Assembly: GCA_026874595.1 (NCBI GenBank)
Contig: CM049309.1
Location: 91,906,723-91,970,722, forward strand
Reading direction: 5' to 3'
DNA from: Sipunculus nudus
Lineage: Eukaryota > Annelida > Sipuncula > Golfingiida > Sipunculidae
DNA: 64,000 nucleotides
Shown here: positions 17,593-59,800 of the stretch, piece after piece
Position numbering within the stretch: the first letter of the stretch is position 1
How the letters are laid out: each line of letters opens with the position of its first letter
Translations under genes and position numbers: made by a program
Notes under the pieces: generated by a model
Told to the model about the DNA's origin: nothing
The model's database searches: none
Seen by the model: only the letters and a program-made list of their open reading frames with translations

Positions 17593-17666
<74 letters not shown>

Positions 17667-17671
17667 ATAAA

Positions 17672-17714
<43 letters not shown>

Positions 17715-27027: not shown

Positions 27028-27113
27028 GGAGGGGCGCTTATTAGGGTATAAAAATATTTTGAAAAATTTAATTTTGAGAGCGCCCGGGGCGCTTATTAAG
27101 TCAATTACGGTAT
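27028..27113. repeat. Dispersed repeat copy, inverted relative to 24012
   Basis: The two GGGGCGCTTATTA motifs within this segment, and the end TTAAGTCAATTACGGTA, correspond to the reverse complement of 24012-24063. It ends about 35 bases before the SLC5-like orphan exon. Confidence 0.6.
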
Positions 27114-27147
27114 GTAGTATTTGTAGGTATGATGTTTTGTTCCTTAG

Positions 27148-27264
27148 TTATTGGAAGAGAGAAGACACGTCAGAGTTACTGATGGCTAACCGCCGCCTGA
27201 GCGTGTTCCATGTAGCCGTCTCCGTCGTGGTGACGTTCCTTTCCATCTCGATCAGGGTGTCAGG
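27148..27264 (+). pseudogene. Orphan SLC5-like exon fragment
   Basis: This 117-base open segment has a plausible acceptor (TCCTTAG) and a strong donor (GTAAGT). It encodes TSELLMANRRLSVFHVAVSV and continues to ISIRVSG, which aligns with [20 protein letters not shown] in the two full transporter first exons, ending at the position of their ILG. So it covers the loop before TM2 and TM2 itself. The donor is at a different place from the full exons. No neighbouring exon that completes a transporter was found in the next 6 kb. It could be a remnant, an exon of a gene with distant partners, or a cassette exon. The family match is by eye. Confidence 0.5.
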
Positions 27265-27299
27265 GTAAGTTGGGTCTTTTTTTGCGTTGCTTTGGTATG

Positions 27300-33397: not shown

Positions 33398-33406
33398 TAT
33401 ATAAAG
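33398..33406 (+). promoter_or_regulatory. Candidate TATA box for transporter exon 1a
   Basis: TATATAAAG lies 160 bases before the ATG at 33558. This would give a 5' leader of about 130 bases. No better core promoter was seen. Confidence 0.35.
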
Positions 33407-33557
33407 CAGCTGGGTATTTAAGGAACAGGCCCTGGGACTCGCACAAGGTGTATGTTCTCCCCTTTCAGAGGAGCTGGGCGTACGATATTTTGGAAGGACA
33501 CTCTAAGGTTGAACTCAAGATATTTGGAGGGGGTGTTAGTATTTAGAATATTTCAGA

Positions 33558-33908
33558 ATGTCGACTTCGGAAGACATACCAGGATTCGGGGTGGTTGATT
33601 ATGTCTTGTTTTGCGGCATGTTAGTCGGGTCTCTGGGGATAGGGATCTATTACGCCGTCTCTGGAGGGAAGCAGAAAACAACATCCGAGTTTCTGATGGG
33701 GAACCGCGGGATGAGCATCGTCCCTGTAGCTATATCCATCCTGGTGTCTTTCATGTCCGCCATTTTGATTCTGGGGACTCCGGCGGAGATGTACACGCGG
33801 GGGACCATGTATTTCCTGTACGTGATCGGGATCTCACTTGCCATTGTATTTGCTACGCTACTCTTTGTACCTCTACTGTTTCCTTTGAAGCTCACGAGCT
33901 CCTACGAG
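33558..33908 (+). CDS. Alternative first coding exon (1a) of SLC5-family sodium symporter
   Basis: 117 intact codons run from an ATG with A at -3 to a strong donor (GTAAGT), in phase 0 after SSYE. They encode an N-terminus plus TM1-TM3 of an SLC5 transporter. The segment from [14 protein letters not shown] through YTRGTMYF is identical in protein to exon 1b at 40757-41095, and the rest is conservative. The first ~31 residues differ. Both exons stop at the same codon and phase, so this exon could splice directly to exon 2 at 42808 to give a 630-aa isoform. No private downstream exons are visible between 33909 and 40756. It is either an alternative first exon with its own promoter or the leftover of a duplicated gene. 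Intactness and silent-site divergence favour function. Confidence 0.8.
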
Positions 33909-34479
33909 GTAAGTCAGCACTGTATTTTAAAATACAAAAATGTAATTGAAAGTATAAAAAACTTAAAAAGTGAAAAAAAGTTCTTTTCTAAAATATAAAT
34001 ATAATACAATCATAACATTATTTACATATTTATATATATATAATTAATTTATCTATTCATGCAAGTGTTTAAATCATGACACACATTAAAATAGTGATTT
34101 AAAAATTGATTTTCGTGTGGGATATACACATTTCCTTTCACACCTGCGCCCTTTCTCACAGTAGGTAAATCAGACATACCACAGGTAACGTCGGGGGTGG
34201 CCTGGCGCCTGTTATGTCTCCCCACTGTGATTTGAGCGTTCTTAATGACAATGATTGGTAAACTACTTGAACAATACCCCGTTTCTTATCAGTTTGTTTC
34301 TTTGCCATATTTATTTGATTAACCTGTTCCAACCTTGAGTTACTTCTCTCTGTATCTTCCGTTCTCATTTCCCGTTGGAAGTCCTTTTGCTGATACATCT
34401 CCTATCCGCAACGGTACCCTTGAGAACATGAAAAGGATCCTTCATTTAATACACATCAAAGAGGACAAACCAGCTCAGA

Positions 34480-35070
34480 CCGGGCAAACTCGCACAGGAC
34501 ACAAACGCTCAAGGCACATCACACCTGAAAAACTCGCACATGACTCTTTGCTCAGGGCAACGTCACACCTGACAAACTCGCATAGTACATTGGTGCTCAG
34601 GCCACATCACCCCTGAAAAACTCACACAGAACACTTGCGCTCAAGGCAACGTCACACCTGACAAACTCGCATAGTACACTGGTGCTCAGGCCACATCATC
34701 CCTGAAAAACTCACACAGGATACTTGCGCTCAAGGCAACGTCACACCTGACAAACTCGCACAGTACACTGGTGCTCAGGCCACCTCATCCCTGAAAATTC
34801 ACACAGAACACTTGCGCTCAAGGCAACGTCACACCTGACAAACTCGCATAGTACACTGGTGCTCAGGCCACATCATCCCTGAAAAACTCACACAGGACAC
34901 TTGCGCTCAAGGCAACGTCACATCTGACAAACTCGCACAGGGCACGGGTGCTCAGGCCACGTCTCACCTGAAAAACTGACCTAGGACACTGGCGCTGAGG
35001 GCACGTCACGCCAGACAAACTTTCACAGGACACGGACACCCAGGCCACATCACACCTGAAAACTCTTGCA
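34480..35070. repeat. About 88-bp higher-order minisatellite of two 44-45 bp half-units
   Basis: Alternating half-units read GCTCAAGGCAACGTCACACC with TGACAAACTCGCATAGTACA, and GCTCAGGCCACATCATCCCT with GAAAAACTCACACAGGACAC. About six and a half pairs are present. Confidence 0.88.
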
Positions 35071-35179
35071 GGGACTGGTGATCAAGACTAGCAGTGAATA
35101 CATACATACTAAGTTCTGGGAACAAAACCTGCTTCATATAACTCACTTTTGTCACACAAGACACGCTCACCATGAACGA

Positions 35180-36015
35180 TGTCGCTCAAGGTGCGTTATA
35201 CAGGACACAAACATAAATGACAGGTCACAAAGAACACATCAACAAAGAACACGTCACATGAGACACATCGATAATGGGATACACTGTCAATCAGGACGGG
35301 TCACATGGGACACATCAACAATGAACACTGTCACTCAGGATGGGTCACATGGGACACATCCGCAAAAAAACACTGTCATTCAGGACACGTCACATGGGAC
35401 ACACCGACCATGAACACTGTCACTAAGATGGGGTCGCATGGGACACATCCATAATGAACACTGTCACTCATGACGGGTCACATGGGAGATGATAGGACAC
35501 ATTCATAATGAACACTGTTACTGAAACGGGCCACATGGGACACATCGTTATTGAACACTGTCACTAAGATGGGGTCGCATGGGACAAATCCATAATGAAC
35601 AATGTCACTAAGGACGGGTCACATAGAACACATCTATAAAGAGCAACGTCACCCAGAAAGCGTCACATTGGATAATCCATAATGATCACTGTCACTTAAG
35701 ACGCATCACATGGTACAAATCCATTATGAACACTGATACTCATGACACATCAAATGAAAGAATCCATAATGATCACTGTCACTCAGGACGCGTCACATGG
35801 GACACATTCCAAATGAACACTCTCACTAAGAACGTGTCACATGGGACACATCCATTATGAAAGCGGTCCTGGGTAAAAGTGTTAATTGTGGATGTGTACC
35901 ATGTGACGCGTCTTAAGTTACAGTGATCATTATGGGTGTGTTCTATGTGACCCGTCCTTAGTAACATTGTTCATTGTGAATGTGTCCCATGTGACCCGTC
36001 CTTAGTGACAGTGTT
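35180..36015. repeat. Diverged 44-bp minisatellite with an internal inverted block
   Basis: Degenerate copies of CACATGGGACACATCCATAA with TGAACACTGTCACT(C/A)AGGACGGGT. From about 35878 to 36015 the same unit appears reverse-complemented (ATGTGACCCGTCCTTAGTGA), so a block of about three units is inverted. Confidence 0.85.
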
Positions 36016-37328
36016 CATAATCGAAACACTCATAATAAATGCTGTCCTCAGGACGGCTCACATGGGAAACACCCATAATAAACATTGTCAATCAGGACGG
36101 CTCACATGGGAAACACCCGTAATAAACATTGTCAATCAGGACGGCTCACATGGGAAACACCCATAATAAACATTGTCAATCAGAACGGCTCACATGGGAA
36201 ACACCCATAATAAACATTGTCAATCAGGACGGCTCACATGGGAAACACCCATAATAAACATTGTCAATCAGGACGGCTCACATGGGAAACACCCATAATA
36301 AACATTGTCAATCAGGACGGCTCACATGGGAAACACCCATAATAAACATTGTCAATCAGGACGGCTCACATGGGAAACACCCATAATAGACATTGTCAAT
36401 CAGGACGGCTCACATGGGAAACACCCATAATAAACATTGTCAATCAGGACGGCTCACATGGGAAACACCCATAATAAACATTGTCAATCAGGACGGCTCA
36501 CATGGGAAACACCCATAATAGACATTGTCAATCAGGACGGCTCACATGGGAAACACCCGTAATAGACATTGTCAATCAGGACGGCTCACATGGGAAACAC
36601 CCGTAATAAACATTGTCAATCAGGACGGCTCACATGGGAAACACCCGTAATAAACATTGTCAATCAGGACGGCTCACATGGGAAACACCCATAATAAACA
36701 TTGTCAATCAGGACGGCTCACATGGGAAACACCCATAATAAACATTGTCAATCAGGACGGCTCACATGGGAAACACCCATAATAAACATTGTCAATCAGG
36801 ACGGCTCACATGGGAAACACCCATAATAAACATTGTCAATCAGGACGGCTCACATGGGAAACACCCATAATAAACATTGTCAATCAGGACGGCTCACATG
36901 GGAAACACCCATAATAAACATTGTCAATCAGGACGGCTCACATGGGAAACACCATAATAAACATTGTCAATCAGGACGGCTCACATGGGAAACACCCATA
37001 ATAAACATTGTCAATCAGGACGGCTCACATGGGAAACACCCATAATAAACATTGTCAATCAGGACGGCTCACATGGGAAACACCCGTAATAAACATTGTC
37101 AATCAGGACGGCTCACATGGGAAACACCCATAATAAACATTGTCAATCAGGACGGCTCACATGGGAAACACCCATAATAATCATTGTCAACCAGGACGAC
37201 TTGCATGGGAAACACCCATAATAAACATTCTCAATCAGGACGGCTCACATGGGAAACACCCATAATAAACATTGTCAATCAGGACGGCTCACATGGGAAA
37301 CACCCATAATAAACATTGTCAATCAGGA
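36016..37328. repeat. Homogeneous 44-bp minisatellite, about 29-30 copies
   Basis: The unit is ACATTGTCAATCAGGACGGC followed by TCACATGGGAAACACCCATAATAA. Copies are almost identical; rare variants are CCCGTAATAA, AATAGACATT and one 1-base deletion near 36950. It is continuous with the diverged array upstream and is the young, homogenised part. Confidence 0.97.
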
Positions 37329-37579
37329 CACATCCTACTTGACTTTTCCACTCAATACACGGAATACCAGTACCAGACATTCAGGGCATTCAGCAGACCT
37401 TTGTTTACTCACACTAGATATTATTTCTATTATAGTTTATCTTGTTGTCATACTTTTACATCCTGTTATTTTGTTTTTCTCTCATTTGTTCTCTTATCCC
37501 TCACCTGATGTTACTCAGTGCTCTTATTACTAACAGCATTATGAATCCAACAGATAAGGAGGACCTGAACAACTCACAA

Positions 37580-37880
37580 ACAATGATATATTTTTATAAC
37601 ACTTAACGAATTTTCATAGACACAACATAAACTTTCATATACATTTGATAAAATGTCAAATACCCATAATAAACTTTCATATACATTTAATAAAATTTCA
37701 TATACCCATAATAAACTTTCATATACATTAAATAAACTTTCATTTACCCATAATTAATTTCATAGACACTTGATAAACTTTTATATACACTAAATAAACG
37801 TTCATATACGCAATAAAACTTCATATACTCATAGCCTTTCATATTTATAGACACTTAATAAATTTTATAGACACTTGATG
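37580..37880. repeat. Diverged AT-rich about 42-44 bp repeat tail
   Basis: Repeated ACCCATAATAAACTTTCATA and TACATTTAATAAAATTTCAT words. The shared CCCATAATAAAC suggests an old, decayed continuation of the preceding 44-bp family. Confidence 0.6.
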
Positions 37881-40756
37881 CACTGCCATATAATGTTAAG
37901 TTATCACTGTTAATCATAATTACCTTCTGAACAAACCTTAACTCAGCTCTCAAACTGAGAACTCATACCCGGGTGTAATCTGTGCCAGACATTCCTTGTA
38001 CGAGTGGGACTTGTGTAACCCCCGTGGTGAGCACGTACGTTACCAAAGCGCGGTCTCTGTGATTTACTCGGCCTGTCTAGTAACTGAAACATGGAGTTTT
38101 CGATAACATCTCACTTGGTTAATCGTCCGGCGATGACGCAGACCTTGATATCGGGTGGTTTTTACTTGATATCAGGCGCTCTTTTACCATTAATCATCTA
38201 TGCGTTCAGACATAGACACGTGACTTTTCCATGTATCTGTGGTGCTTCAAGGCGTTCTCAAATTATATAAAAAAATGATTAAAACATGATATGGTGAGAC
38301 AATGGTGATACAGATCTACAAAACTATTTATTTATTCCAAAAATGTGTATTTCATTTCACACACATACACACACACATATATAAATAAATAAGACCCATG
38401 TAGACTATAAGAGTGTATAGTGGCCATCTTTTGACTGAGACGTTCGTGCTGTTATACCGTATCGGACTCCGCCATCCCTTGCCTGCACAGTCTTTTAAAG
38501 GAACCCAATCACCTATAAAGCATATTTAATTAACACGAAAATTAGCTTCTTTCTGTTAAATAAATTTGTACCTGCCAAAATATTGCCCTGAAATCGTTTG
38601 CTTACTCCTGTAAACAAGTGTTAAAAGCAGTGGACCGGGCGCGATCATAGGTGTAAACAAGGCGCGTGCATTGCCGGGCCACAGCACGTGTCAATCAGGA
38701 GATGCCTTGACGGAATTGGCCCAAAAATGTAATACATGTTCCCGCTGCTGAAACATCGCGTGTTGCTGCTCACAATCGAACCTCAGGTCACGCCTTTATT
38801 ATGGTAAACAAATACATGTGGACTGTGTTAACAGACACGCAGAGCAACAATAAAGTGTGCCGTATGCGTGGTACTGAGATTGTGTGCTTGGATGGTTTCC
38901 TGGAAAACTTTTATATCAAGCAAAACTGAACTGGTAGTGTTAAGTGTAGGCATAACATTTCTCCTGATTATGTCCCTTTAAAACACACAGGTCCAGGGGT
39001 AGGTATATGACGACTGAATCTTCACAAAGCTCAAAATCAACAAATGTTTCAAGTAATTTACGAGAAACGTTAAGTATATATCAACCAAGAAGTGAACTCA
39101 GGTCATCCTCACGTCAGTATTGTGATCAACCACTGACCACGCATCGTCCTTTTGAAATAAGTTCGGCTAAGTCAAAAAACAGCTTTTCTTCTGACTTAGC
39201 GGAAAGGATTAAAAAATCCGAAGAGAAGTGAATGGCGAACAACGTCGTGTGCTGACCTGGGCTGGACTCATTAGTGCAGTTATCAAGCTCCACTTTTTAG
39301 GAGGAGCTCCAGAATTCTTTATAATGTGCATATAATTTATTTTAACCAAGGTTACCGCATTTTAGTTTATTGGGTATTCTTTTATTTCAATAATGGAGTT
39401 CTTTTTCAATAAATTGTTCTTTTAAATTGTTGTGCAACGCATTAAAACGTACGTTTATGTTTGCGCTATATTTATGAATATATTATAATTATAATTATTT
39501 TAACCTTGAAACTGAAACCCTGAATTATAAAAAAATTAATGTGTTTGGTTTTTGCTGACCCTCAGCAATTTGCCTACATGTACAATCATAGCCCGCTTGT
39601 CACGTGACCACGCAGAACACTCATACACAGGTAAAAAAGGCAGCTGTACTTGGTCTCACACATTGATTCCTAGAACCCTGACCGTCCGTCCACAAAAAGT
39701 CATATACTGGTAATGTGGTATCTCAAAATCTGTTCCTAATATTCAATTCTAATTAAGATGACTTGTATTTTAAATTTTAAATTAAACATTCCAAGTGCGA
39801 TGGTATATCTAAAGTGTTACTAATATCAATTTCTAATGGGTCATATCACTTGGTCATATCTAAGGGGCATTCATGATTTATTTTGTACTTTCTCACTTCT
39901 GCATATCTCACATTCTCTATGAGCGGTGATCTAGGTCCTCTACAGACTTATACTTGTGGCTTCTACTGTCTTGATCGTCCCGAATGATTCACATCTCCCT
40001 CACAAACCTTATTAGGTCCGTAGAATTTGCTTTTCATAATAATCTTACTTTTACTACAAAATGATCTTATTAATTACGTGAATCCTAAAGACAAGTAAGG
40101 CTAAAAACAGCTCATCCGACCGTGCGAAATGATGAAATGATTTACCTGATGTTGGACTCACTCACTGAACTTCATTTCACTACTTTATCTTAGCCACAGA
40201 TTGGTAGAAGTGTTATGGTCAATCTGGCCCACTCCGCCAGCGGCCAGAAGTACTTACGATCTTGGCCCGCACCTCCTGTACATGCATGGCGTATCACCGG
40301 CATAGGAGATTTACTGCCGTATATTCATACCTTATCTTTATTGTGTACAGTCTATACACTCACGTTGCTGGAACACAGAAACCTCGTCAAACAACATCCA
40401 TATCATCCTCTTAAAACTAATATATAAATATTATCAAAGCATTAGGGTCGTGAAATTGATGCGGTTTAGATCGGAGGATAACGGACTTCAAGCGGCTATA
40501 CCCAGGTGATAATCATATCATGTTAATGATAAATGACAAATATCATTTACAGTCTACGTGACCTGTTAATGATATAATTTTTGTGTAGCCGGGTGATTCA
40601 TTGACTTTAAGGTACATAGGGCGACATCACCAGACACCCGTTCTGCGCCGTCAGATGGTCTCAGATGTAAGAACCGCTCACACCTCATATTGTCTCAGTT
40701 TTCAAATCTTTCTGAAGGCACATTTCTTTCAATATAAGAGGAAATAACCAGTCACC
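37881..40756. other. Spacer between the two alternative transporter first exons
   Basis: Apart from the repeats already listed, nothing coding is supported. A 74-codon Ser-rich frame at 39007-39231 has no recognised homology or splice signals. The promoter for exon 1b should lie in the last few hundred bases. TATAAG at 40733 is too close to the ATG to be a normal TATA box. Confidence 0.4.
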
Positions 40757-41242
40757 ATGACCCAAAGACGATTTCAGTGGCCGGACTATCTGGTTTTTGC
40801 GTTGATGTTGGTGGGTTCCCTGGCGATTGGCATCTACTATGCCTTTGCCGGAGGGAAACAGAAGACGACCTCTGAATTTCTGATGGGGAACCGCGGGATG
40901 AGTATTGTTCCTGTTGCAATATCCATTCTGGTCTCCTTCATGTCCGCCATCTTGATCCTAGGAACACCTGCCGAGATGTACACACGAGGGACTATGTATT
41001 TTATCTATGTGATCGGAATGACCCTTGCTATCATTTTTGCAACACTGTTGTTCGTTCCACTGTTGTATCCGCTCAAACTAACCAGTTCGTACGAGGTAGG
41101 GACACACTCAAGATGAAATTGTCTGTCTGCCTTTCTGTATAATATATGTATATATACATGTGCTTAATCATAAACCTATATATAATTTTATGTTGTATAT
41201 GTATGTAATTTACATTTCCAAATAAAGAATCCTTTAAAACAT

Positions 41243-41310
<68 letters not shown>

Positions 41311-41468
41311 GGTAGAGCTACCCTCCGTTGTAAAGTGCTCTATGGCCTACAGACTAGGCGAGAGCGGTATAACTCTGAAGAAAAGCAACACTGTAAAATT
41401 CACAACAGTCTATTTCATGGGATGCGACCCGATCATCAGGTGAATTTACGGTGTTGTTTTTCTTCAGG

Positions 41469-41518
<50 letters not shown>

Positions 41519-44500
41519 GTTTTCTTCTACAATGGAAAATGCAGGATGAGACCCCTACATTAATGTTTATAATAAACTGCCAGATTTTTTTTTCTTAAAA
41601 TGAAATTCTTTAAAGAAAGACAGTAATGAAACATATACATTTTAGGACATATACCCCAATAAGGTGTTAGAAATAATCGCTAAAATTTATTCGCCATCTG
41701 CTATTCATCACAAGCTGTCCCGACTGCCTCCTCACTGCCCCGCAACTCTCAGTTGTTACAAGCTGTCCCGACTGCATACTCACTGCCCCGTCACTCTCAG
41801 TTGTTAAAAGTCCTGACTGCCTCCTCACTGCCCCCCGCCACTCTCAGTTGTTGCAAGCTGTCCTGACTTCCTCCTCACTGCCCCCCGCCACTCTCAGCTG
41901 TTACAAGCTGTCCCGACTGCCTACCCACTACCCCCGCCACTCTCCGTTGTTGCAAGCTGTCCCGACTGCCTACTCACTGCCCCCGTTATTCTCAGTTGAT
42001 GCAAGCTGTCCCGACTGCCTACTCACTGCCCCAATCTCTCTCAGTTGTTACAAGCTGTCCCGACTGCCGACTCACTGCCTCCGCCACTCTCAGTTAATGC
42101 AAGCTGTCCCGACTGCCTACTCACTGCCCTGTCACTCTCAGTTGTTAAAAGCTGTCCTGACTGCCTCCTCGCTGCCCCCGCCACTCTCAGTTGTTGCAAG
42201 CTGTCCCGACTGCCTCCTCACTGCCCCAATCTCTCTCAGTTGTTACAAGCTGTCCCGACTGCCTACTCACTGCCCCCGCCACTCTCATTTGTTGCAAGCT
42301 GTTCCGACTGCCTACTCACTGCATCCGTTACTCTCAGTTGTTGAAAGCTGTCCCGACTGCCTACTCATTGCCCTATCTCTTTCAGCTGTTACAAGCTGTC
42401 CCGACTGTCTACTCACTGCCTCCGACACTCTCAGTTGATGCAAGCTGTCCCGACTGCCTACACACTGCCCCCGCCACTCTCAGTTGTGACAAGCTATCCC
42501 GTCTGCCTCCTCACTTCCCTCGTCACTCTCTGTTGTTATTAGCTGTCCCGGCTGCCTCCTAACTGCCCCCGTCACTCCTAGCTGTTACAAGTTATCCCGG
42601 CTGCCTACTACAAAAAATCGAATGTTTCAAACAAACAAAAAAAACTACCTAAAATAAATAAGCGTTTCATTGAAAAGTATTTCCGATTAACCACATTACT
42701 CACGTTATATGTTTTGTTTTATTGTTTTTTTTATATATATTTTTTCATAGGGTGACGTGTATTATACACAGTTTATTTATTTTCATGTTGGTTCTCTCAT
42801 TTTGTAGTACCTGGAAAAGCGGTTTAGCTCAAAGGCGGCCAAACTTACAGGTAGCCTCATCCTCTTCGTCATGCAGGTATGTACATTATATAACCCATCA
42901 GTTACGTCATATATAAACCTATCCACTATATATTGTACATTATAAGACCCATCAGTTACGTCATATATAAACCTATCAGCTATATATTGTACATTATAAG
43001 ACCCATCAGTTACGTAATATATAAACCTATCAGCTATATATTGTACATTATAAGACCTGTCAGTTACGTCATACATAAATCTATCAGCTATATATTGCAC
43101 TCTATACGACCCATCAGTTACGTCATATATAAACTTATCAGCTATATATTGTACATTATAAGACCCATCAGTTATGGTATATATAAAGCTATCAGCTATA
43201 TATTGTACATTATAAGACATCAGTTGCTTCAAATTCAAAGCTATCAGCTATCCTTGTGGATGGTGCATGTTTGAATCACAAAGTTTGACTGGTAAACTTA
43301 TTACAAAACACAAACATTTAATTGTGTCGTTAAACTATTTATACTTTGCGATGCTATTTCAGAATCTCACAATATTGTTTCAAACCATGTTCGTAAACTA
43401 CTTAAGGTTCTGAACATAAATACATTCACTTTAGCGCGGGCCAATACTGACCGCTTTCTCGTTACCAAATATTGCTTAAATATTTTATAATTCAGTCAAG
43501 TTTACATTATAATCTATATTCGAAAAATATGATGAAAGTGTTTAAAACATATCGATTATTTTGGCAATTCATTTTATATGCGCCTCTCAATATGGCTTGA
43601 ATACCAGTGGCTTTGTTTGCCCTACATACAACATAGAAAGGCATTGGTTTTTTTAACTACACAAACTACGGAAACCGACATACTTATTTGAAGGAAAATA
43701 TACGATATGTATCTAAATTATGCCCAAGGCTCTTAGACATTGGCCTGGTTTCAGGTGAATACCTGTGATACAGGTCTCTGAGCTCTCTCAGTAGGCAGTA
43801 TATCACTATGTGGGCTTCGGACCTTCGTGATATATTATTTGGGTGTACCTGAGTATGCCAGTGCATGTTTACCAGCGTAAACACGTGTATTCTTATGTTA
43901 TGAACTTTCCTATCCTGTCCTGAAATTTATCATTTGGCTTGTTCTGATGCTTTCGTTCCTTGTAAACCCCTCACCAGAGTACCTCTCATTGTGAGGCAGT
44001 CCTTCAGTAAAGAGATGTACTGAGAACAATCACTTTTTTCATGTAAGGACACGCGTGCGACAATTGTCCCACTTTTCATCGATCGTCTGGAAACGTGGGA
44101 ATTTGTTTTCGCAATGTGACGACACAAAAGAAATATGATAATTAGACCAATCTATATGTGAACTATCCCGTAATATGAATGCCTCCAAGAATTATGATTA
44201 GTATCCGGCACAGTGACCATCATCTAGAAATATGAACACCATCCCGCACTGTGACCACCAACAAGAATTAATAAACAAATGCCGCAAAGTATTATACCAA
44301 TACATTTTACCGACCTCCCATAAAATATTACTGTTTTTTCTTCTTCTTCGAAGAAAAATTATAAGAAATGGTTTCAATGTCCTGCAAACTGGTGACAATC
44401 TAGAAATGTGATTAAATGTGATGGCACTATGGTCGCATTCCATGGGTTAAAAAAAAACAATATCCAACAACGGCTCCGCCAAATGTTGATGTCTGTTGTT

Positions 44501-47500
44501 CCTACACCAGGTGATGCTCGTGATTAGATTTAACAAATGAGACAGTGAAACCAAAAGGACACGTGTTTTGTCATAAGATGATTTCCTGGCAGAAATTTTA
44601 TTGTCGTAACAATGAAACAATATAAAATTAAGAGAACACGTGATTGTCATCATATAATCATCCTTTTCAGGTTCTATATATGGGTATAGTACTCTACTCC
44701 CCCTCTACGGCGTTAGAGGCAGGTAAGACCTCATTTTAATCAGCTCTGCTCTAAACCTAATTAAATGTGAAGCAAGGTATATAAAAGGGACACATTGCCG
44801 CTGGAGGGACTCGTCCAATATTGCTATTCGCCATAATGTTTGTATATTATTGTATTTTGTATCATTCGAATGAGATCTGGTATTTGCGTAGGCATATTAA
44901 TTGACTATTCAAGCAAGCATTTGGCTGTCATGGTGATTTAAAGAACATTTTGTGTAAAAATGGCATTCATTTTGCTTTTCTCCAAAGTTATTCCAGATTT
45001 CCCAGCTCCCTTATTTATCTTTAACAATGGTTAAAATTTAAGTTGCTCCGTAACGTATCTTGCATGCAGATGAACATAAAATTTTAATCTGCTGATGTGC
45101 AATGATTACTCTATATATTGAGAACATAAGTTCAATGACATATACATGCAGCTCTGTGACAGGTTTTAACTCAGCATTTTGTAAATACCTTTGGTAAAAG
45201 TTTATAGAGAGCCGAAGAATGGATTTAGCCTTATATAATATCCAAGATTTTTTTATTAGGGAATAAAAAATATTTTCATTGATTTTATTATATCACCTGG
45301 CAGAAATGTCCTTGATTGTGGGTACACTAGCCATTGTGATGTTACGTACCAGTGATTGATTGTGAAAGGTGAAGAACAAATTAGATCCTTGTGATCACTA
45401 AAACAAAACCGTCATGACACGGAGACAAATCACCCGAGGTTCAAGTGGCCGCAAGCGAGAAATGATCGTCTTATGTCAGTCACATATAGTCGTAATCTGT
45501 GACATGCTCTTTGAAGGAATCTGAAAAGAATTCATTCAGTTGACCAATCAGAGTTAGCCATATCAACTTCCTAACCGATCAGATAACAACAAACGATTCA
45601 GTCTGACCATATATAGCACCGTTTGATATTCTCGGTATTCTTCTTTATTGGCTTGAATGCAATATTAAATAGGACTTCATTGCTTTGTGGACTAGAGTTG
45701 TCGTTTTTCATGCGTTTAACGGGACAAAAATTAAAAATTTTAATTTTAAATTGTGTTACCGTATAAGCATTGATTCTGAATCTGGAAGAGTATTTGTGAT
45801 CTATAGGGCCAGGACGGTTAAAATATCTAAAAAAATCAATATACTTTTTATATATAAGGTGTCACGTGTATAGAAATAAGCCATATTTTGGACTTTCCGA
45901 CAAACACTGCCAGTATTAATATTAAAAGTATTGTTATTAAAGTAATGGTTATCATTACTGAGAAAAATTTCCCTGAAGTAAAAAAACTGTCTGTCTGTCA
46001 TTAATGGTTCCATTTACGTATGAAAACCAACGAATAAACACATAGAATTATCATTTAACCGTACGAAAGAAATACATATTTTTATATGTTACTTGAAAGG
46101 CTATTTAAAAAGAAAATTCAGACCATGAAGTATGAGATTTAATAGAATTTTTTTTTCAGTTACGGGTTTTCCAACATGGGCTGCAATCATCATTGGAGGT
46201 GTTGTGTCTACTGCATATACTACCCTGGTATGTGTTTTGGCATGCACAGATACGCGTACACATACATACACACATACACAAACCTACAACGAGTCTCATC
46301 ACGGAATAAGTGCCGCCATCGGCGACAGTGTTTGTTGTAATGCGTGAAGGGTGATTGTCCTGTAATACCTGACATTTAGCTAGTTTATTTCACACTACGT
46401 CAAAACACCTTGTTATATATCTAAATTATCTGAACTTCATTCTAACATCAAAAAGCAAAATGCTGCTCTCTTTTATACTTTCCTTTGCTCTAGAATCGCG
46501 TCATGAGTTTTTTTTGTGTGCACTTCTCTATCAGTCTCATTAATTGATATCCCTTTGTTGTGTACACCTCTCAAGTTCGGTTTACCTTTGTCACAACAAT
46601 TATGTCCTTATTTTTAACCTTAAGATAAGACGGTATGAACTCTCTGGTATGAACAATCCACATTAAGTGAACAATGGGGTACATAAATCACCTTCCGTCT
46701 GGGGTTCGCACAGGAGCACACAAACCACACGTTTCGGAATTTGCCCTTCGCTTGTTCAAACATTTGAATACACGGCCAGCTTCATGCGTCGGTCAAAATA
46801 AAAATACACTTACAAATTATTAACAGGTGCCGGATATGCGATATATTGTAGACTTACATAATTCTTGAACTTCACTAAAAACTTTGCTCTGGTTCTATTC
46901 TTGAAATTTGCGATAGCTAAGAGTAATATTAAAACATTTTTGTTATCCCTAAAAACAAGATGGAATACCACGTGACTGGTCTGTTGTCTGTTTAAATGAC
47001 AGTCCCTGAAAAGCAAACTACCCTACTAGCGAAGAGCGGTGAATTGTGTTAAATAAAACAGGATTATATCATGCAGATTTAGTTCTATAAAGCAGACACC
47101 TTCTGCCAGGAACGCCACGTTGTTTTTTAGTCTTCTTCACCTCCTCCCAGCAAACACTGTCACTGAACATGCACCGACAAAAATTATAATTTCGAAAAGC
47201 AACATACACCCGCATTTTTAAATAAGGTTCATCGGGCAACTCATGAAAACAACAGTAGTTTAAACTGCCATATATATCTGTCATATAGCATTCAGATATC
47301 TATGGAATGTATACATTCATATGCCAATTTGTATACATTCTATTGGCTATCGTAAGAATGTATACATGCTATGGTCAAAAATACGGAATGTATACATGCC
47401 ATGGCAAGGGTCAATTCCACTTAATTTAGATATATATCAGCTCTTTTATTGAGAAAAAAGACTTTGAAGCCATAAGATACAGCCTGTTTTCAACAAATAA

Positions 47501-47864: not shown

Positions 47865-50800
47865 GTATTTACATTATCAACTTCACAGTCTCAGTCTGTG
47901 CCCTGAGTACTTCAAAATATGTCCGTTATGGTCTTTTCACCAGCCTGTGTACAGTCCTGTACATGTCCGTGTTTTCGTTATCAGGGCGGGATGAAGGCGG
48001 TCGTATGGACGGACGTGTTCCAGGCGGGAATCATGGCCGCGGGTCTGCTCGCTGTAGTCATCAAGGTACGTTTCTGATTCAGCGACTAATAATGACACAC
48101 TAACAGTTAATGTTTCAAAATGAATCATCATTCGGTCCAGTCAAATATACAGGTAAACAAAATGTTTGGTGAGAATTTTCTAATCCTAATTATCTGTCTC
48201 TTTTTTTTATTACTGGCCATGGCCTGAACTTGGCGCTAACTGCTACAAGACAATGAACAGACCATGCATATGACAATGGATAAGAGGAGTGGTCTTGATA
48301 GCAGGTGTTCTATTCATGCATAGAAAATCTCTGGTCAGATTTCACCGTGCACCGAACTTTGTCTTATTAGTCATAGGAAACATGAGGGAAAGTCCAAAAA
48401 ATAACTACGGTGTCTAGTCAAACGTAAATCTTAGTCTACTTAGACCACTAATCTGATGTAAAAAAACAGTATGAGCCTGCTGTCCCCACATGTGCAAAAA
48501 TAGGTCATGGTTTGGGTGCAGATATGGTTTATATATATGCTACAGTAAATGTGTGTAATCAGTCAATCTGTAAAATGCCTGAAATTTTCAGTCAATTTAC
48601 AAAGTGCCTGGCTAATTCATTCAGGAATATTTAAAAATGTCTGAAATTTAGGCATTTTACAAATTGACTGAAAAATTAGTTTATTTGATAGATTTACTGA
48701 ATCGATATGAAATAATCTTTTGTTTTAACATATCGCATTATTGTACGGAGCCCGGGAGACGACATGGTGAAAAATATTTATTAATCCGTGCGCACGAATT
48801 ACTAATCCGTGCGCACGAATCATTGGGTGTGAAAAATATATTTGCAAGTTGAAAAAATATTTATTAATTCGTGCGCACGGATTAGTGATCAATGAGAACA
48901 GCTCTCTTATGTTGCTGGCTCAATGCTCATTGGCTACTAATTCGTGCGCACGAGTTATTAATTCGTGCGCACGAATTACTAGTCAGTGAGAAGCAAGCAC
49001 ACATCGACTCAGTCTAGGCACAGGCTGGCAGATTCAGCGGGCACACACGGTTGTCAAAATGCAGCCCAGCGCCTTCCGACAGTTCCGTGACTTCCTACCA
49101 GGGAAAATTCGGAACTCTGTATATTGAAAATAGAATAAGGGATACTTAAAGAATAAAAATACAAAACTCACAGAATCAGTTGCCTTGCATGGTGGAAAAT
49201 TCCTAAGGTTTTCTCTGGTTAAAAAACAACAGCCTACATTATCATCGTTGGGGCATAATGGGAACATAATTATAGACAAAGCCGATCAGGCTGAAATTTT
49301 TAACAGTTATTTTGCTTCACAGAGTAACTACAGTTACAGTTCTCAATCGCCATTTGACGATGATTCTAAATTGCAAATTACACATAAACTAGATGAAATG
49401 AACTTCACAGAGACTGAGGTATCTCATGTCATATTTGGGATTCGCTTTCCTGATAGGAACACATAAACTTGATATGTTTGAAACCCAATAAGCGTTTGGA
49501 AATTTTTAAAAGATTATAAATTCCATTTCTCTATGAAAGTTTTAGATCGTATGAACAAATCATTAATACGTTTAGTACTGGAGTGTGGTGTTTTAATACT
49601 TAACAATTGTTCAGTCAAACAGTCATACTAACTGGAGAGTAAACAACGGAAAGCATGTTTAACATGTACTGGAGCGCTCTCGACTTCCAGCACTGGAGCT
49701 ATGGTAAAAGAGCTATGATGGTCAAGTATAAAAATAAGAAGAGATCTGGCTATACAATCCACATTTTATGAAATGATTAATGGACTAGCTCCTGATTATC
49801 TTTTAATATATTAACTCAAACTCTATCTCATGCTCAGCCTTATACAGTTCGCGCAAATCGCATTTGCTAAAGATACCGAGGTTCACACGGAAAGACTGTC
49901 GCTTTTCTTTCCTTCCTATATTCTTTTCTTTCCTCTCAATAGCCTGCAAACTTTGGAACAGTTTCCAATAATTCAGTCTACTTCAATAGATTCCTTTAAG
50001 GAAAATGTCCGTGACTATTTAAACCCTGCCTCTCGAGAAATATACAGTTATTATTGTGACAATCATCGTCAACATGTAATTATCCATACTCGGTTACGAC
50101 TAGGTGCCAGTTACTTAAATCAATACCTATTTTCAATTGGAAAGACCGATTGTTTTAATCTAATTGATAAGCTCGATATGGACTGAGACGTTTATTTTTA
50201 TTGTATTTCGCCTACCAGTAATAATACAAGTATCTGTGTATGTGGAATGTCAATCTGTATTAACGTATATTATGTATCTATATATTTATATATCGTCGTG
50301 TGTGAATATATGTGCACTTTTCCAATCTGATCATTTCTATATACATATATACATTCATGTAAATTTTTCACTTTCTTATAATTGATATGCAGGAGAGCAG
50401 TTGCATGAGCCTTATCGGCTACTTTGTTATCCTATTGAAATAAATATTTTTCCACCTTGGAAATGTATTTTTCACACCTAGGCTAGTAATTCGTGGCCAC
50501 GAATTAGTAATTCGTGCGCACGGATTAGTAATTCGTGCGCACGAATTAATAAATATATTTCACGATGTCGTCTCCCGGGCTCCGTATTATTGTGAAGGAA
50601 ACATTGACAAATATTTTTACCAGCTACTTTTGAGTAAATTTTCTGCTTTTTTTTCTAAGCTATTTATGAAGAATACTCATCAAATAATAAAAAACACACC
50701 TGATGAGAGGTAACCAGAATCATATAGCTGTGTATATCATATATGTACACTGTTATAATATAACGAAATATGCATACTAATACTATTTTACAACTCATAT

Positions 50801-53800
50801 GACCGCATGGTAAGAGGTAAATGTCAAATTTGGAAGCGTTTGATTTAATAAAACATTAAAATGTGCAATAATATTTGAAATTTATGATGAAGAACGGTAA
50901 AGGATAACCGCAGTTACATCAGTTGTTAATTCCAAATACATGATTAAGATATGCTTAAATTAGTGACAAATGGTAGGGTTTAATCACAATTGCCGACTGT
51001 GTTTGTTAATTTTAATGAGTTTGCAACAGTGGCGTCAATTTATCTTCCAGAGGTGGGGGGGGGGGGGTGACTCGTTCACACACACACACACACACACACA
51101 TATAGAAATATATAATTTTATATATACTTTATTTACATATACCTTTTTAGCGTCTGTATGACCCATTTCAAATATATTTGTACTTAATCACATTTCAAAT
51201 ATATTAAAATTAAGTATAAGGTTTCAGAAAATAAAGCATTATGTTTCAAGTATATGTTAATTCTAAACAAGGTTTAATTATTTTATATAGTTTACTCATC
51301 TATGAAATCAAAGTCTATTATTTTATTAATTTAAAATAACCCCCCCCCCCCCCCCCACGGATCCCCCTATTGACGCCCATGGTTTGCCATCAGCATTCTT
51401 TTAGAGGAGCCAGACTGTGGTCTCTGGGAATGTTGAACAGTCAATTTTCCTAACAAAGTGGACATAACATATAAACTGTTCCCTCCCCTGTCCCCTTATC
51501 ATCATATAAAAAATTGTCATTTTGCCATGAAAAAGGCTCTAATTTTGAGTTATTTACAAAATTGTCGACAGTTTCCTCAAATATTTATGTAGTGTAATCT
51601 TTCAGATATAACGTTTATTTAAAAAGAATACTATTAATATGACATGATTCACTCTTTGAGAATTGTGAAACTCAGTTATTAAAGCACGAGTTAAATAATT
51701 CATACAGATTTCAAGAATTCAAGCAAGCGTTTAAGTTTTATTGTGAAATAACCAGCGGGGATCTAAGGATGGGGGGGGGGGGGATGTTCTCAGGGGATGT
51801 TTGCTCCCTATAAGTATTTTCAGGTCCAACATTTTAATATGTTGTTTGTTTCTGAAGCGAGAATATTCCCTATTATTTGGTACCAAAATTGCTTCGAAAA
51901 TTAAATTCTGAAATTTTGAAAGAAAATTATAACGATATTCCCACTCTGAGTGAGGGAGACAAAACTCCTTCACCCGCTCCCAAAGTGGAAAAGCAATCTG
52001 CACCCCAGAGAAAGTATTATATTAAGATCTCATTTCATTTCATGAGTTTTTCTCAAGAACCAGAATTAGGCCAAATTAACGCTTTTAATTATATGATACA
52101 TTAAAATATGCAATAACATGATGTAAAATATATCAACATTTTGTAAGACTGAGGTTTATTTAATATATGAAAGGTCATTTAAACCTTTATTATTGTATAA
52201 CAATAGTATATCATTCTGTTTTAACATTTCAGTCAATGTTTCAAATAAGCTGACTGAAATCTCGAAAATTTCAGTCATTTTACAAATTGCCTGAGTGACT
52301 TTGACTGTAACATATATGAGCATTAATAAGACAAACGATTGTTTCTGACAATATTTTCTGCCCGACACCATTAATTTGACAATTAATTGAAAATATAAAT
52401 ATAGACAACAAAGATGATAAATGCAAAAACGACACTCCAAAGAGCGTTTATTAATAAATGACTTAACGCGGATTATCTTTGTATACTGCCGATGATGATA
52501 TCAGCATGACGTGTCAAAGGAGCATTAACTTTTTATTAATACACACACTTACACACACACACAAACACACACACATATATATACATACATATCTTCGGGT
52601 AGTTTACATTTCCTTTTTACTACTTAATTCTGATACATAAAACCACTTAATAAAGTTTAAATTTTCATAAATTTTATCCCGTTATTTCCTAGTATATACA
52701 CAGGAGACTATCACGATTGCTATCAGGGGCAGATTTTTTTTTCTGTCAGTCCCGTTTATGACAGAAAAAATTAAAGTAAGGTGCATGATCTCTGGGGCTT
52801 GAGGGCACTTATAACATTTTTCCTGACAGATCTGATATCCTTCGTTATGAACCGTGTCATAAAAAGGAGGACATTATATGATAAGGAATAATCTAGCCCT
52901 ATATACACTTGTATAGACAGTGTTGTACCTACTCACTACAAAGGAAGCTTATTCACGGACAACAGATTAGATAAAAATAACATAAAACTCCCTGAGGGGT
53001 AAGGTTTATGCCAACCATTGTAAATGCCACTAACTGATAATGATTCAATATAAAAATCAGAGATATATATATATATATATATAAACTTATGCATTTTATA
53101 ATTCAAGCGTTATTATATATAGTGTAATCAGTTAAAAGCTGAAATAGACAGATCACAGCTAATTTCAACATGAAACTGGGGAGGGGGGGGGGTGAGTTAT
53201 AATATCAGTAAATCATGCGCATGGACGATAGGAGCACACGTCTCAGCGAGATAGGTGTTTTCTGTATAATGGAGGATCCGAAATGTTTAGAACTGTAAAA
53301 CAATATTCCAAAATTTTAGGGCAAATAGAATAGTTGTGAAAAATAGTGCAAGAATAGTTGCAAATTATCTGAAGTTTTAAAGAAAATGTTTCAGACATAT
53401 AGACTACTTTCAACAAGTTATAAGCTCTTGCAACACGAAGACATGACATAAATACACTGATGTTGTCATTAATGTTCTCTTTTATTCAGGGGACCATAGA
53501 TGTGGGCGGAATCGGAGAAGTCTGGGAAATTAATCGACGGGGTGGTCGTCTTATCTTTTGGGAGTGAGTATCTATTTATAATAATTATTTATTAATTATA
53601 AAGATATTATTACAATAAATGAAATGTCATACTCAGCCTCAGAATCTGTAGCTGTGCGTTATAGCTGTACCGTTACCGGTGTTTACATATATTATAAATT
53701 TACACCTGAACTAGTGGGCATACATCTACTTGCACATTAAGATAGGATTAAGCTTATTTTTCTCAATTACAATACAAAAATACGAAAAATAACACAACAA

Positions 53801-56800
53801 ATGTCTTGCACTTCCGTAATAGTAAATTACAGTTATTTAGCTTTATATTTCAAATTTTAAAAGCAACAAAGTTAGTTTTTCTAATTTAAAAGTTACTTGC
53901 ATATTAAGAAAGGATTGAGCTTATGTCCCTCAATTAAAATACGAAAAAAAACCCCGAAAATGACACAACAAATGTCTTGCTCTTCCGTAATAGAAAATTA
54001 CAATTATGTAGCTTTCAATTTCAAACTTCAAAAGCAACAAAGTTAGTTTTTCTAATTTAAAAGCTATATTTTCTTGATTTAGCATGGACACGTTTGTCGA
54101 TGATACTATAGAAATGTCTGATTTATGCCGGGAGCTCATTTGGGGGCGGTTTTTCAATGCGTTTTCGCACGAGGTTGGTCTTGGTTTATTTAAAGGCGAT
54201 CCCTTGTACAGTGCTACTTCTTGCTACCAGATTAAAGCTAAGATTGCTTATGCATGGAATGCGGAATGCGCTATGGGGAAAGCGGGATGCTGACAAAATC
54301 ACTATTGGCTAAATAAATAAGGTGAGATTCCATATGCGCGGATCCGCCATGCAGGATGCGTTTTCGGCAAAACGAATCGCTACATGTAGCGACTTTTCCC
54401 GGTTCCGATTGGTATCAAGGGGAAACATATATAGAAAACATACAAACTGCCATGCATTCCTCATTCCACATACCGGATTTCGCATCACGCATCCCTCATT
54501 CCACATGCCGGATTCCGCATCACGCATTCCTCATTCCACATGCCGGATTCCGCATCACGCATTCCTCATTCCACATGCCGGATTCCGCATCACGCATTCC
54601 TCATTCCACATGCCGGATTCCGCATCACGCATTCCTCATTCCACATGCCGGATTCCGCATCACGCATTCCTCATTCCACATGCCGGATTCCGCATCACGC
54701 ATTCCTCATTCCACATGCCGGATTCCGCATCACGCATTCCGCATTCCGTACATAAGGAATCTTAGCTTAACCCTGTTCTGGGAAAAAAACCATTACATCT
54801 AGTCAAATTCTAGCCTTTCTGGATATATTCCCCGTTCATCCGCTTTAGTATGCTCAACGCAATTATCAACGACCTTACAAATGACAAATCCTTAACTTTT
54901 AATGGCACGTCACTTGTAACCCACAAAGCCAGGGAAGTAGATAAAGCAGATGGAGAGGAAAGTATTGCCGCCTGTCGCTTCTAGGTTTATGTTCGCTGTG
55001 TATCTAGACGGCACGGGAACATTTCATGGGACATGGTTTTTAAAATATGTAAATAAATAAGATAAGCCCCATATTTCACACACTCCTTGTAAAGTGGATG
55101 TACACGTGGATAACCCATATGTGGAATAAGCTCGTTCATAAGCAAAATGCAATTGAAGTAAACTTTTCACCGATGGTTTAGAAAATATACATGTGCAGTT
55201 CTTTGAATTATACAGGCTGGCATTTTATCCGTTCTTTCGTTGAGACAGGACTGCGCGAATTAGGCGGGGCTTGTCAAATGGCAGATTTTGACAGATTTTC
55301 TATTGGCCGAGTTCTCAATACACTAGCGTCATTTCTGATAGATGGCGCTACGATAGACCGTTCGCACAATATCCCATATTATGTCGAATTCTTTGGGATT
55401 TATGGAAAAATATGTTCCCGATACCTGACGATAAAAATGGGCGTCAACATTTTTCGAGGCATGACCACAGAGAAATAGCGTTGCAACAATTTTGTGCTAC
55501 CATCAAATAACATATAGATACAGTTCCTCCGGGATACTCATCCTGGTTTTTTTATTAATTTATTTTCAGCTTTGACCCTGACCCAACAAAGAGACATACT
55601 TTCTGGGGTCTAACCATTGGTGGTCTTGTTGGATGGCTTTCTACATACGGCGTGAACCAGGCCAGTGTACAAAGATACTGCTCACTTCCTACACTCCAAA
55701 AGTCTAGAATGTAAGTCATATCAACGATACAGAGATATGGATCATTCTCTCCACACTCAAAAAAGTCTAGAATGTAAGTCATATCAACAATACAGAGATA
55801 TGGATCATTCTCTCCACACTCAAAAAAGTCTAGAATGTAAGTCATATCAACGATATAGAGATATGGATTATTCTCTCCACACTCAAAAAAGTCTAGAATT
55901 TAAGTCAGATGAACGATACAGAGATATGGATATGATCCGTGTTTCCCTGTAGGGCATTGCTTAAGGTTAATGATATGATACGTATTTTTCTGTACGGCAT
56001 TGTTTAAGGTTCAAGATTTGATCCGTGTTTACCTGCTGGGCGTTGTTTGTGGTTCATGATATGATCCGTGTTGCCCTGTAGGGCGCTGTTTAAGGTTCAT
56101 GATATGATCCGTGTTTCCCTGTAGGGCATTGTTTAAGGTTCATGATATGATCCGTGTTTCCCTGTAGGGCATCGTTTAAGGTTCATGATATGATCCGTGT
56201 TTCCCTGTAGGGCATTGTTTAAGGTTCATGATATGATCTATGTTTCCATGTAGGGCATTGATTAAGGTCCATGATATGATCCGTGTTTCCCTGTAGGGCA
56301 TTGTTTAAGGATCATGATATGATCTGTGTTTCCATGTAGGGCATTGCCTAAAGTTAATGATATATTCCGTGTGTCCATGTATGACTGGCCATACTTAGGG
56401 TATAAATAAAAAAAAGAACATTATTTAATTGGAACAGTTATTTTTGGTGTTACATAATATTTCCACAGTCGTTACCATTTCCTCACACTGATTTTGAAAA
56501 TGGTTCCAATAACTTCATCATTATTTTCTTTCACTTTACCGACCTCTTGTATGACTCTAAAACATGAATATATTCCTATTTTTAGTAAAGATTTTCTATA
56601 TTGAATCCAACGAAATAGTCATACATTAGAATAACACAAATTAAAAAAAAAACATGTGGCATCACAAGTAACTTGTGAATATAAACAGGTTTGGGCTTCG
56701 CAAAGTAGTTTGTCTTTGCATATTACAATTTTCATCATATGTTTTTATGTTATAAGGAAATTGTTATTGATATTTTTCTGACTAATAATGTGTATGTGTT

Positions 56801-59800
56801 GGTGTGGTTACAGCTCGGTGATACTCAATATCCCCGGGGTATTGTTCCTCATGATCATCACGTGCCTTAGCGGTATCGTCATGTACGCCTATTACGCCAA
56901 GAAGCAATGTGACCCCCTCCGTGCAGGCCGCGTGTCAAACCCTAACCAGGTGACGACTACCTACTTCTGTACCCTCAAAACCTTATAAACAGGATATTAT
57001 TTGAACCTACAGTCTTTTTTATTTCTCATCTGCCATGCTTCCCTTTTATAAAAACTGATAATTAAATAATAAAGTTTCAAACAGTTCATTATTCGACTTA
57101 AAAAAAAAAAAGTTACAGACGCAGCTTGGTAGTCATGTTCGAGAATTGTTTTTGTTCTTGTTTTTTATGACAAGTTTAATTTGTAACCACGTAAATAATT
57201 AGACATCAAGATGTTTAGTGGACCTTGTTGTAAAGCTGTCCATCAAAAGATTACACAAGAAAGCAGAAGAATTCTTTGAAGAATGTCTTTTGGATTAATG
57301 TGATAATGATATGATAATAAAAACAGGTTGTCCAACAGAGCTCATATTTATTTTAAACGATCACCTAGGTGTAAGAACCTGCCTTGAAGAAATCTGTCAA
57401 TATATAATCACCATATTAATAAAAATAAAAAACAAAAGTGCTCCAATATTGGATTAAAAAATATGAGTTGGCACTTGTTTGAAATGTTTTCCTGGCATTT
57501 GATCTATTTGAGATGTAGTGGAAATAATAATAAATAACCATTAATCATCATCAGACGTCATATTCATTTCAAAATAACATTAGCTTATATCACTGATAAT
57601 TATAATATTGTGACCTTTTACCTTAATTTTTCTGGTGGCATTGTTTGTTTCAGCTGATGCCATATTTCGTGATGGAGGTCCTGAACGTTCCCGGCCTGCC
57701 CGGCCTTTTCCTCGCCTGTCTGTTCAGTGGCTCCCTCAGGTAGCAATAACAGGAAACTTCTCATCTTCACTAACTCAACCACAAACTATTTTGTTATGTT
57801 ATGTAAGAGTATTTGGCATCTCGCCTTTATAGTCTAGATACATTTGAAATAATTTTCTGAAATATCTGTCATGATCGGAACTTGTACCTTTAAAATTGAG
57901 CAAACGTCAAACTGAAGAGAATTTAAAGCATATTAAATCACATCGGTCTATATTTAACAAGATTAGCTCTTTAAATCTGAAGCAGTTATATGATATCTTT
58001 GTGCTACTTTATTTTTGCTAGCACCATGTCTTCCTCTCTGAATGCCATGGCCGCCGTTTTCTGGCAGGACATTCTACAGTACAAGCTCGGCCATATCTCC
58101 GAGTTCAAGAAGGCTCTCACCACTAAAATTCTTGGTAAAGTTCGCCTCCTTATTATATTTATGACAAAACCAGTAGAAAAGAATTGCATCATGTAAACAT
58201 TAAAAGTAATGTCGTAAACATTGAATGTAATGTCGTAATGTTTGTGTGGACAGTCATATTTTTTAATAATAAAAATAATATCAATAATAATAATAACTTA
58301 TACTTATAATGCGAACTAATACTACTAATAATAACTAACACTAATGCTAGGTGTGATGATGATGATGAATCAGTTTTCATTGCATCTACGTTAACTTTAA
58401 ATGATGATAAAATTACATACTGGTCTGCTTTTTAATACATGTTATGACTTCTGAATTTATCTAGTGATAATATTTGGTGTCGTTGGTATCGGATTTGCAT
58501 TCATGGCACAGAACCTCGGTGGAACTGTTTTACAGGTAGGACTTGTGCCATGGTGAATCTTACAGTAGAAACAATACCATCTCATCCACACATCGAGGTC
58601 GTTGCACTTCCTTTTGTAGTTTACAACAATCTATATATGTAATTGAAATCCTATGATAATAAACATTTTGAATGAAAAAGATATACTTTTATAAAAAGCT
58701 TTGTGTCTATCATTTTAACTGTACCGGAAATGTTAGTCTTTGTGTCATCGTTTCTGTCTTGATAAAGAAAATCAACAATTGTTTGTAAATACTATTGATG
58801 CCTTGTGACTTGTACATTTTTCGTCCGCCAGGCGTCGCTGAGTTTTACGGGCGCAGCGTCTGGCCCTCTCCTTGGCCTGTTCCTTCTTGGCGGGGTATTC
58901 CCATTCAGTGGATGGCTCGTGAGTTAATAACTGTCGTCTGCTTCCATTCAGTTATAATCGTTAAGAATTACTTAAATTAGCAATAGCTAAAATTGCAGCG
59001 ACACTTTATCATGTTAAGCGCAGTCACGGTACTTTCACTAATTCACATGCCATGTGAAAAGATATGAGATCTAATATTCGTTTATGTCTCACGTTTAGTT
59101 TTTAGTTTGGCTGATGTTGTGATTAAATCTTATTTTATCATTAGTAATTATATATATAATACTGGACATATATAGGTTTCATTTTCCTTAAACCTTTCCA
59201 AAAGGATCTTGTAGAGGCTTTAAATAAGAAGGCTGTAACTCTTCAATTCTTTTCCAGGGTGCCGTAATCGGAGGGATTATTGGATTAGCGTTTCCGATGT
59301 GGATAAGTGCCGGAGCTTATTCTACCCGCATTCACCACCCGACTCTTAACACATCCATAGCCAACTGTCCGGCGAACTGGACAATCCCGACGCCAACGCC
59401 CCCTGGCCGTACAGTGGACCAGCTGTGAGAATAAGTTTTAAAACATACAGTATGGTATCGTTCATTTGACACTCGGTTGTCTGAATTTCTAATTTGACAG
59501 AATATGAAATAATTCCAGTATTTTAATTTGATGTTAGCATCACGTGATAACAGGTTATTCCGTAGGAGCCAATATACTGATACATTCTGATATGTAGGGA
59601 ATCAAGTTTGTATCCCCCTCCTTATAGACAACAACCACAATACTTTGGCTCAATGTGTGCGCCCGTAAAACGGTATATGTCTGTATCCTCTTGAGTCAGG
59701 TGTTATACACTCCGGTTCTATACACATGTGAACCCCGCTTATACGTCATATGAATGCAGTCGCGGAGTTGTCACTGTGTTTCTGGAATACTTAAGTTACA

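Follow-up and report, generated by a model that had tools for sequence, protein, structure and literature searches.

A 64,000-nucleotide stretch of the genome of Sipunculus nudus, called the window here (C4:91906723-91970722 of the species' own genome, 1.43 Gb in 153 contigs), raises the question of why one transporter gene of the SLC5 family should be headed by two intact first coding exons, 1a and 1b, and whether both of them serve it. Our reading, to which we give a probability of a little over three in four, is that the gene has alternative first exons, 1a and 1b, on one shared body, one of them being used per transcript; judged from the sequence, this would probably yield two protein versions with different first helices.

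Structure of the gene and its first exons

A 16-exon SMCT/SMVT-like SLC5 gene was reconstructed on the + strand of the window (Table 1), exons 2-16 being positioned by means of frame, splice sites and SLC5 likeness. Both first exons end in phase 0 with the codon GAG (GAG/GTAAGT at 33908 in 1a, GAG/GTAGGG at 41095 in 1b), and the start of exon 2 at 42808 is directly preceded by TTTTGTAG; in exon coordinates, shared end codon, phase and donor sites, the first-pass annotation of this DNA had been correct. It had also held that either exon can be joined to exon 2, and with exons 2-16 the joined frames indeed give open proteins of 630 amino acids from 1a and 626 from 1b. The dinucleotides GT...AG are present at 15/15 introns of the 1b form and at the 1a-to-2 intron, a regularity that is partly by construction, because we chose the borders ourselves. 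The ATG of 1a is preceded by an in-frame TAG at 33537, with six codons between, and that of 1b by an in-frame TAA at 40745, with three codons between; both therefore look like initiating exons, and translation probably starts within each of them.

The donor of 1a, previously named as the better of the two, matches the consensus at 8/9 positions and that of 1b at 6/9, the remaining donors of the gene matching at 5 to 8. The open frame of 1a crosses its donor and closes with a stop whose last base is 33998, after 146 residues counted from the ATG, and exon 1a might on that account make a short protein by intronic termination; we regard this as highly improbable, since the donor matches the consensus well and the conserved block described below is the part that would have to fit the body made from exons 2-16.

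The SSF domain is full-length in both isoforms (Pfam SSF 1-406 of 406, 122 and 124 bits), and the match to the TIGR00813 profile reaches 307 bits. Among solved structures, SMCT1 (454 bits), SMVT (423 bits) and NIS (389 bits) come closest to isoform b, while a bacterial SSF symporter (125 bits), a Sodium/glucose cotransporter entry (2xq2; 69 bits) and SGLT1 (43 bits) are remoter. On these scores the encoded protein belongs to the SMCT/SMVT/NIS branch of SLC5, to which it is nearer than to SGLT and the other SLC5 branches compared. We take SMVT to be SLC5A6 and NIS to be SLC5A5.

A transcript started at 1a would be spliced from 33908 to 42808, 1b being passed over, and one started at 1b would be spliced from 41095 to 42808, and the choice of 1a or 1b would most likely be made at the promoter. 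The first-pass annotation had likewise proposed alternative promoters, possibly with tissue-specific use. Both promoters, the 1a-2 junction, the skipping of 1b and the effect of the exchange are parts of this scheme that we infer.

Divergence and constraint between 1a and 1b

Over the 51 codons from GGKQK to TMYF, exons 1a and 1b have 25 silent differences and no amino-acid difference, a count on which our own and the earlier one agree. The 113 codons aligned from the 3' end contain 55 silent and 20 replacement differences, and within the 104-codon aligned part there are 12 replacements, 7 on the N-terminal side of the identical block and 5 on its C-terminal side. The statement that the residues before the first transmembrane segment differ thus stands for 7/12 of these replacements, whereas the other 5/12 lie beyond the block. 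Of 5000 random placements of 12 differences in 104 codons, 0.12% contained an uninterrupted stretch of 51 identical residues (p 0.0012).

The nucleotide sequences of the two exons are 76.6% identical over 304 bases (blastn, E=1.7e-43), the match ending three bases past the exon end; five window segments, compared pairwise by blastn in ten runs, gave no other match with E <= 1e-3. Beyond the exon, no similarity of the surroundings was found at the settings used, save simple TA-rich matches; this confinement to the exon rules out a recent duplication of a longer unit. For the synonymous distance (dS), the NG86 method gave no finite value over the 113 codons and maximum likelihood gave 3.2, with 1.7-1.9 in the 51-codon block; these values come from an experimental Biopython routine and are rough. 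Because the synonymous sites are saturated, the 1a/1b duplication is old, as had been proposed, and the 25 silent differences in the identical block rule out a recent gene conversion between the two exons.

Strong purifying selection on both copies had been claimed as well, and it is supported by the pattern of substitution: the 51-codon core holds about 116 non-synonymous sites without a change, against the 25 silent ones, which excludes neutral drift of more than 0.026 per site at 95%. In 2000 runs of simulated neutral drift, the core stayed unchanged in 4% at 0.025 per site and in 0.2% at 0.05, and on this estimate neutral drift of exon 1a is no greater than about 0.03 substitutions per site. 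Among 406 pairs of 29 exon-1 sequences (29 of the 30 in the tree described below, L029, a copy with a stop, being left out), 1a/1b alone combines 10 or more differences with an unchanged core.

A third first exon and the history of the array

Both of the first exons reported by the first-pass annotation are intact; it overlooked a third, decayed copy at 27104-27265, on the same strand and 6.3 kb upstream of exon 1a. By tblastn this copy falls into pieces at 27111-27155 and 27155-27244, in two frames, and its best matches genome-wide, besides itself, are 1a (40.6 bits), the exon 1 at C4:19.998 Mb (39.5 bits) and 1b (37.7 bits). Since this upstream copy is decayed, the array has lost or gained members.

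A search of the own genome with exon 1b returned 117 matches, all candidates being scored, with 1b and 1a at the top and C4:19998210-19998542, 72% identical, next after 1a. A tree of 30 first exons, built from 1a, 1b and the best 28 of the remaining 115 matches, places 1a and 1b together as sisters (support 93/85) and the C4:19.998 Mb exon as their next relative (95/95). Exon 1a as part of another paralog is ruled out, the nearest of the 30 first exons compared being 1b. The branch lengths are 0.12 for 1a and 0.009 for 1b, and of 12 changes polarised by the C4:19.998 Mb outgroup, 7 fall on 1a and 2 on 1b, with 3 ambiguous. By eye, the start F-x-W-x-D is present in 1b and in 20/28 paralogs and absent from 1a. 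Decay, branch lengths and derived residues together give the order of the array: first the dead copy, then the derived member 1a and lastly the conservative member 1b.

The same observations bear on the idea that exon 1a is itself a dead, disused remnant left by the duplication of a gene: one such remnant lies upstream of it, its branch is the longer one and its N-terminus is without the F-x-W-x-D motif. We nevertheless think this quite improbable, because 1a has an open frame, an ATG, an 8-of-9 donor and an unchanged 51-codon core, and because the 95% bound on neutral drift lies at about 0.03 per site, which leaves only a very recent death.

A probable single body for two heads

If 1a and 1b are alternative heads of one gene, there should be one body. 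With a sensitive tblastn search of the whole window, both proteins found exons 2-16 once each at E < 0.001; the only other match at this level was the first-exon relic, the remainder being chance matches with E of 0.5 or worse, and no match better than E=6 was obtained from the 8 kb flanking the window at each end. In the whole-genome search with exons 2-16, 84 of 407 candidates were scored, and the matches listed contain one exon 2-16 set at at least 84% identity, the window's own. The best of them outside the window is 82% identical over 33 residues, at C4:19.98 Mb, in a paralog with its own exon 1 (the 72% match above), and all others reach at most 64%; among these matches, the own genome shows no close second copy of the constant exons. 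The earlier observation of a single set of exons 2-16 thus holds for the window, for 8 kb on either side and, among the matches listed, for the genome.

As a control we examined two tandem intervals of a C6 cluster with five first exons by the same kind of search: in 2/2 of them, the first exon is followed by exons 2-15 of its own, ahead of the next first exon, with 39-62% identity; exon 2 reached no better than E 0.01-0.03, and no match to exon 16 appeared. Because these C6 paralogs own their exons 2-15, the family copied whole genes in the cases read; the 1a/1b pair would share one body. The same behaviour of tandem copies elsewhere can be turned round to suggest that exon 1a belongs to a further tandem gene as its head, and that the assembly has lost or misplaced exons 2-16 of that gene; minisatellites, at which assembly may go wrong, are plentiful between 1a and 1b. 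The window has no gap letters (0 N), and no other close exon set turned up among the 84 candidates scored; we judge the second gene to be improbable.

Among viral contigs, no relative was confirmed. On contigs C1, C2, C7, C9, C10, C11 and C112 (e.g. L001-L020) the genome search met many long SLC5 frames beside intron-bearing SMCT-like genes; no intron interrupts the matched part of these frames, most of which measure about 510-680 codons, and they are often clustered. Ten SSF frames of 592-593 codons, with near-equal scores, lie on nine small contigs (C61, C62, C63, C65, C66, C69, C72, C75 and C89), and could be a repeated gene or mark these contigs as those of an associated bacterium.

Weighing of the evidence

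Several points tell against alternative first exons on one body, or weaken an argument for them. The Fisher p for the 51-codon block (0.00025) is inflated, because the block was picked for being identical, and the permutation p of 0.0012 is fairer. Among degenerate unchanged residues, 25/46 in the block and 30/41 outside it carry a silent change (p=0.08), and an old gene conversion of the block may explain why silent changes are somewhat rarer there; any such event would still lie some 1.7 silent changes per site back. The 93/85 support for the 1a/1b pair is below the star level of the tree tool, and a hand-calculated Tajima test finds no significance in the 7:2 excess of derived residues in 1a over 1b (p about 0.1). 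The genome search listed 9/15 of the gene's own constant exons (7-10 and 12-16) and not exons 2-6 and 11, so that it tests the longer exons only, and short or weak constant exons elsewhere could have been overlooked.

Further points concern the splice sites and the putative promoters, direct evidence of which is slight. The donor of 1b, at 6/9, is the poorer one. The 8-base motif TATAWAAR has 39 occurrences on the + strand of the window (34 after removal of TA runs), and for that reason the TATA-like site near 1a (Table 1) could be there by chance; no TATAWAW lies within 330 nucleotides of 1b (the nearest is 334 before it), and no upstream motif common to 1a and 1b was found, their 2 shared 8-mers equalling the control median. 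The 357 nucleotides before 1b contain 19 AG sites, and a phase 0 junction of 1a with any one of them runs into a stop before exon 2, whereas 4/10 AG sites inside 1b keep the frame open from 1a to exon 2. The proposition that a two-headed message cannot make a transporter is true for the 19 sites and was dropped on account of the four, which leave a mixed message of 1a and part of 1b possible as far as frame alone is concerned.

Alternative use of 1a and 1b remains our preferred reading, and the protein offers some guidance on what it might do. By alignment with SMCT1, the identical block is a loop and a helix, and the isoforms differ in the N-terminus, in the helix before the block and in the helix after it. 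The helix in the block presumably carries substrate and sodium ligands in this fold. With the binding block identical and its flanks different, the swap is more likely to tune targeting, partners or kinetics than substrate choice. As we read it, both heads must fit the same body, and the binding-site helix is frozen while the N-terminus and the neighbouring helices are free to change. A broader picture, which we offer tentatively and put at somewhat less than an even chance, is of an ancient three-member array of first exons, two live and one dead, in which the substrate/sodium helix would be frozen while the N-terminus and two neighbouring helices diverge, giving one transport site in two membrane settings; to go by the saturated silent sites, it may have been kept since before many related species split.

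Features of the window

The features are collected in Table 1. Inside the 1a-to-2 intron there is a minisatellite with a 44-base unit at 35281-37329 (about 30 copies with a 97% match in 36023-37329), and a second, with a 49-base unit in 18.5 copies, lies shortly before exon 2 at 41710-42609. Intron 5 of the transporter gene has open frames at 49134-50186 that by eye resemble a relic of a non-LTR reverse transcriptase. Upstream, at 15574-19642 on the + strand, open frames resemble a matrix metalloproteinase with hemopexin-type repeats, a label suggested by the zinc motif.

Table 1. Positions in the window of the first exons, the constant exons and the TATA-box-like site.
Feature	Position	Strand	Remarks
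Third, decayed first-exon copy	27104..27265	+	no in-frame ATG (by eye), frame break, shortened
TATA-box-like site TATATAAAG	33398..33406	+	152-160 nucleotides before 1a ATG; putative promoter
Exon 1a	33558..33908	+	start codon, 117 codons, donor GTAAGT, phase 0
Exon 1b	40757..41095	+	start codon, 113 codons, donor GTAGGG, phase 0
Exon 2	42808..42876	+	acceptor common to 1a and 1b
Exon 3	44671..44722	+	
Exon 4	46160..46227	+	
Exon 5	47985..48065	+	
Exon 6	53490..53563	+	
Exon 7	55570..55710	+	
Exon 8	56814..56949	+	
Exon 9	57654..57739	+	
Exon 10	58022..58134	+	
Exon 11	58465..58535	+	
Exon 12	58832..58918	+	
Exon 13	59258..59424	+	
Exon 14	59841..59941	+	
Exon 15	60801..60952	+	
Exon 16	61509..61652	+	includes stop codon TAA

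Comparison with known systems

If the two exons are used as proposed, a frozen transport block between variable flanking helices would amount to a natural experiment that probes the role of these helices. An annotation that omitted exon 1a, or took it for a separate fragment, could also overlook an isoform. We know of no duplicated coding first exon in SMCT1 (SLC5A8), SMVT or NIS, the closest solved relatives of the encoded protein. Among the matches listed, the open-licence PMC literature does not name a duplicated first exon in an SLC5 gene; a razor-clam survey reports 16 SMCT genes, and the word exon is absent from its main text.

Variable first exons are known from other genes, and here they would occur in an SLC5 sodium symporter. 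Four of the features that mark a first-exon cluster are found at this locus: tandem homologous coding first exons on one strand, common downstream exons (within the reach of the searches), the same end and phase, and own start codons. An invertebrate gene with a duplicated exon that gives two protein variants is the oyster AOX gene, a bivalve example that its authors describe as the first of its kind among molluscs (PMC5589949); the duplicated exon there is exon 10, a last exon picked by an alternative 3' splice site, and not a first exon chosen by a promoter. The shortened Dscam genes of chelicerates, also invertebrate, are described as having, ahead of the constant exons, variable 5' units that each possess a promoter, although these units are cassettes of two or four exons, encode Ig domains and number at least 40 copies in one gene (PMC4835542). 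The clustered protocadherins have the same plan as the transporter gene described here, as has the vertebrate UGT1 cluster in the account of PMC1885805; the UGT1 exons diversify substrate recognition, whereas the two intact exons here have an identical middle block. Vertebrate GCNT2 (IGnT) is a further parallel: according to the same account, the tetrapod cluster has variable first exons that are two or three in number and highly similar; each contributes a membrane segment close to the N-terminus, is preceded by a promoter and is joined singly to the constant exons (PMC1885805). The differences are that GCNT2 is a glycosyltransferase with two constant exons and functional mRNAs that have been described, whereas the gene in the window encodes a multi-helix sodium symporter and has fifteen constant exons.

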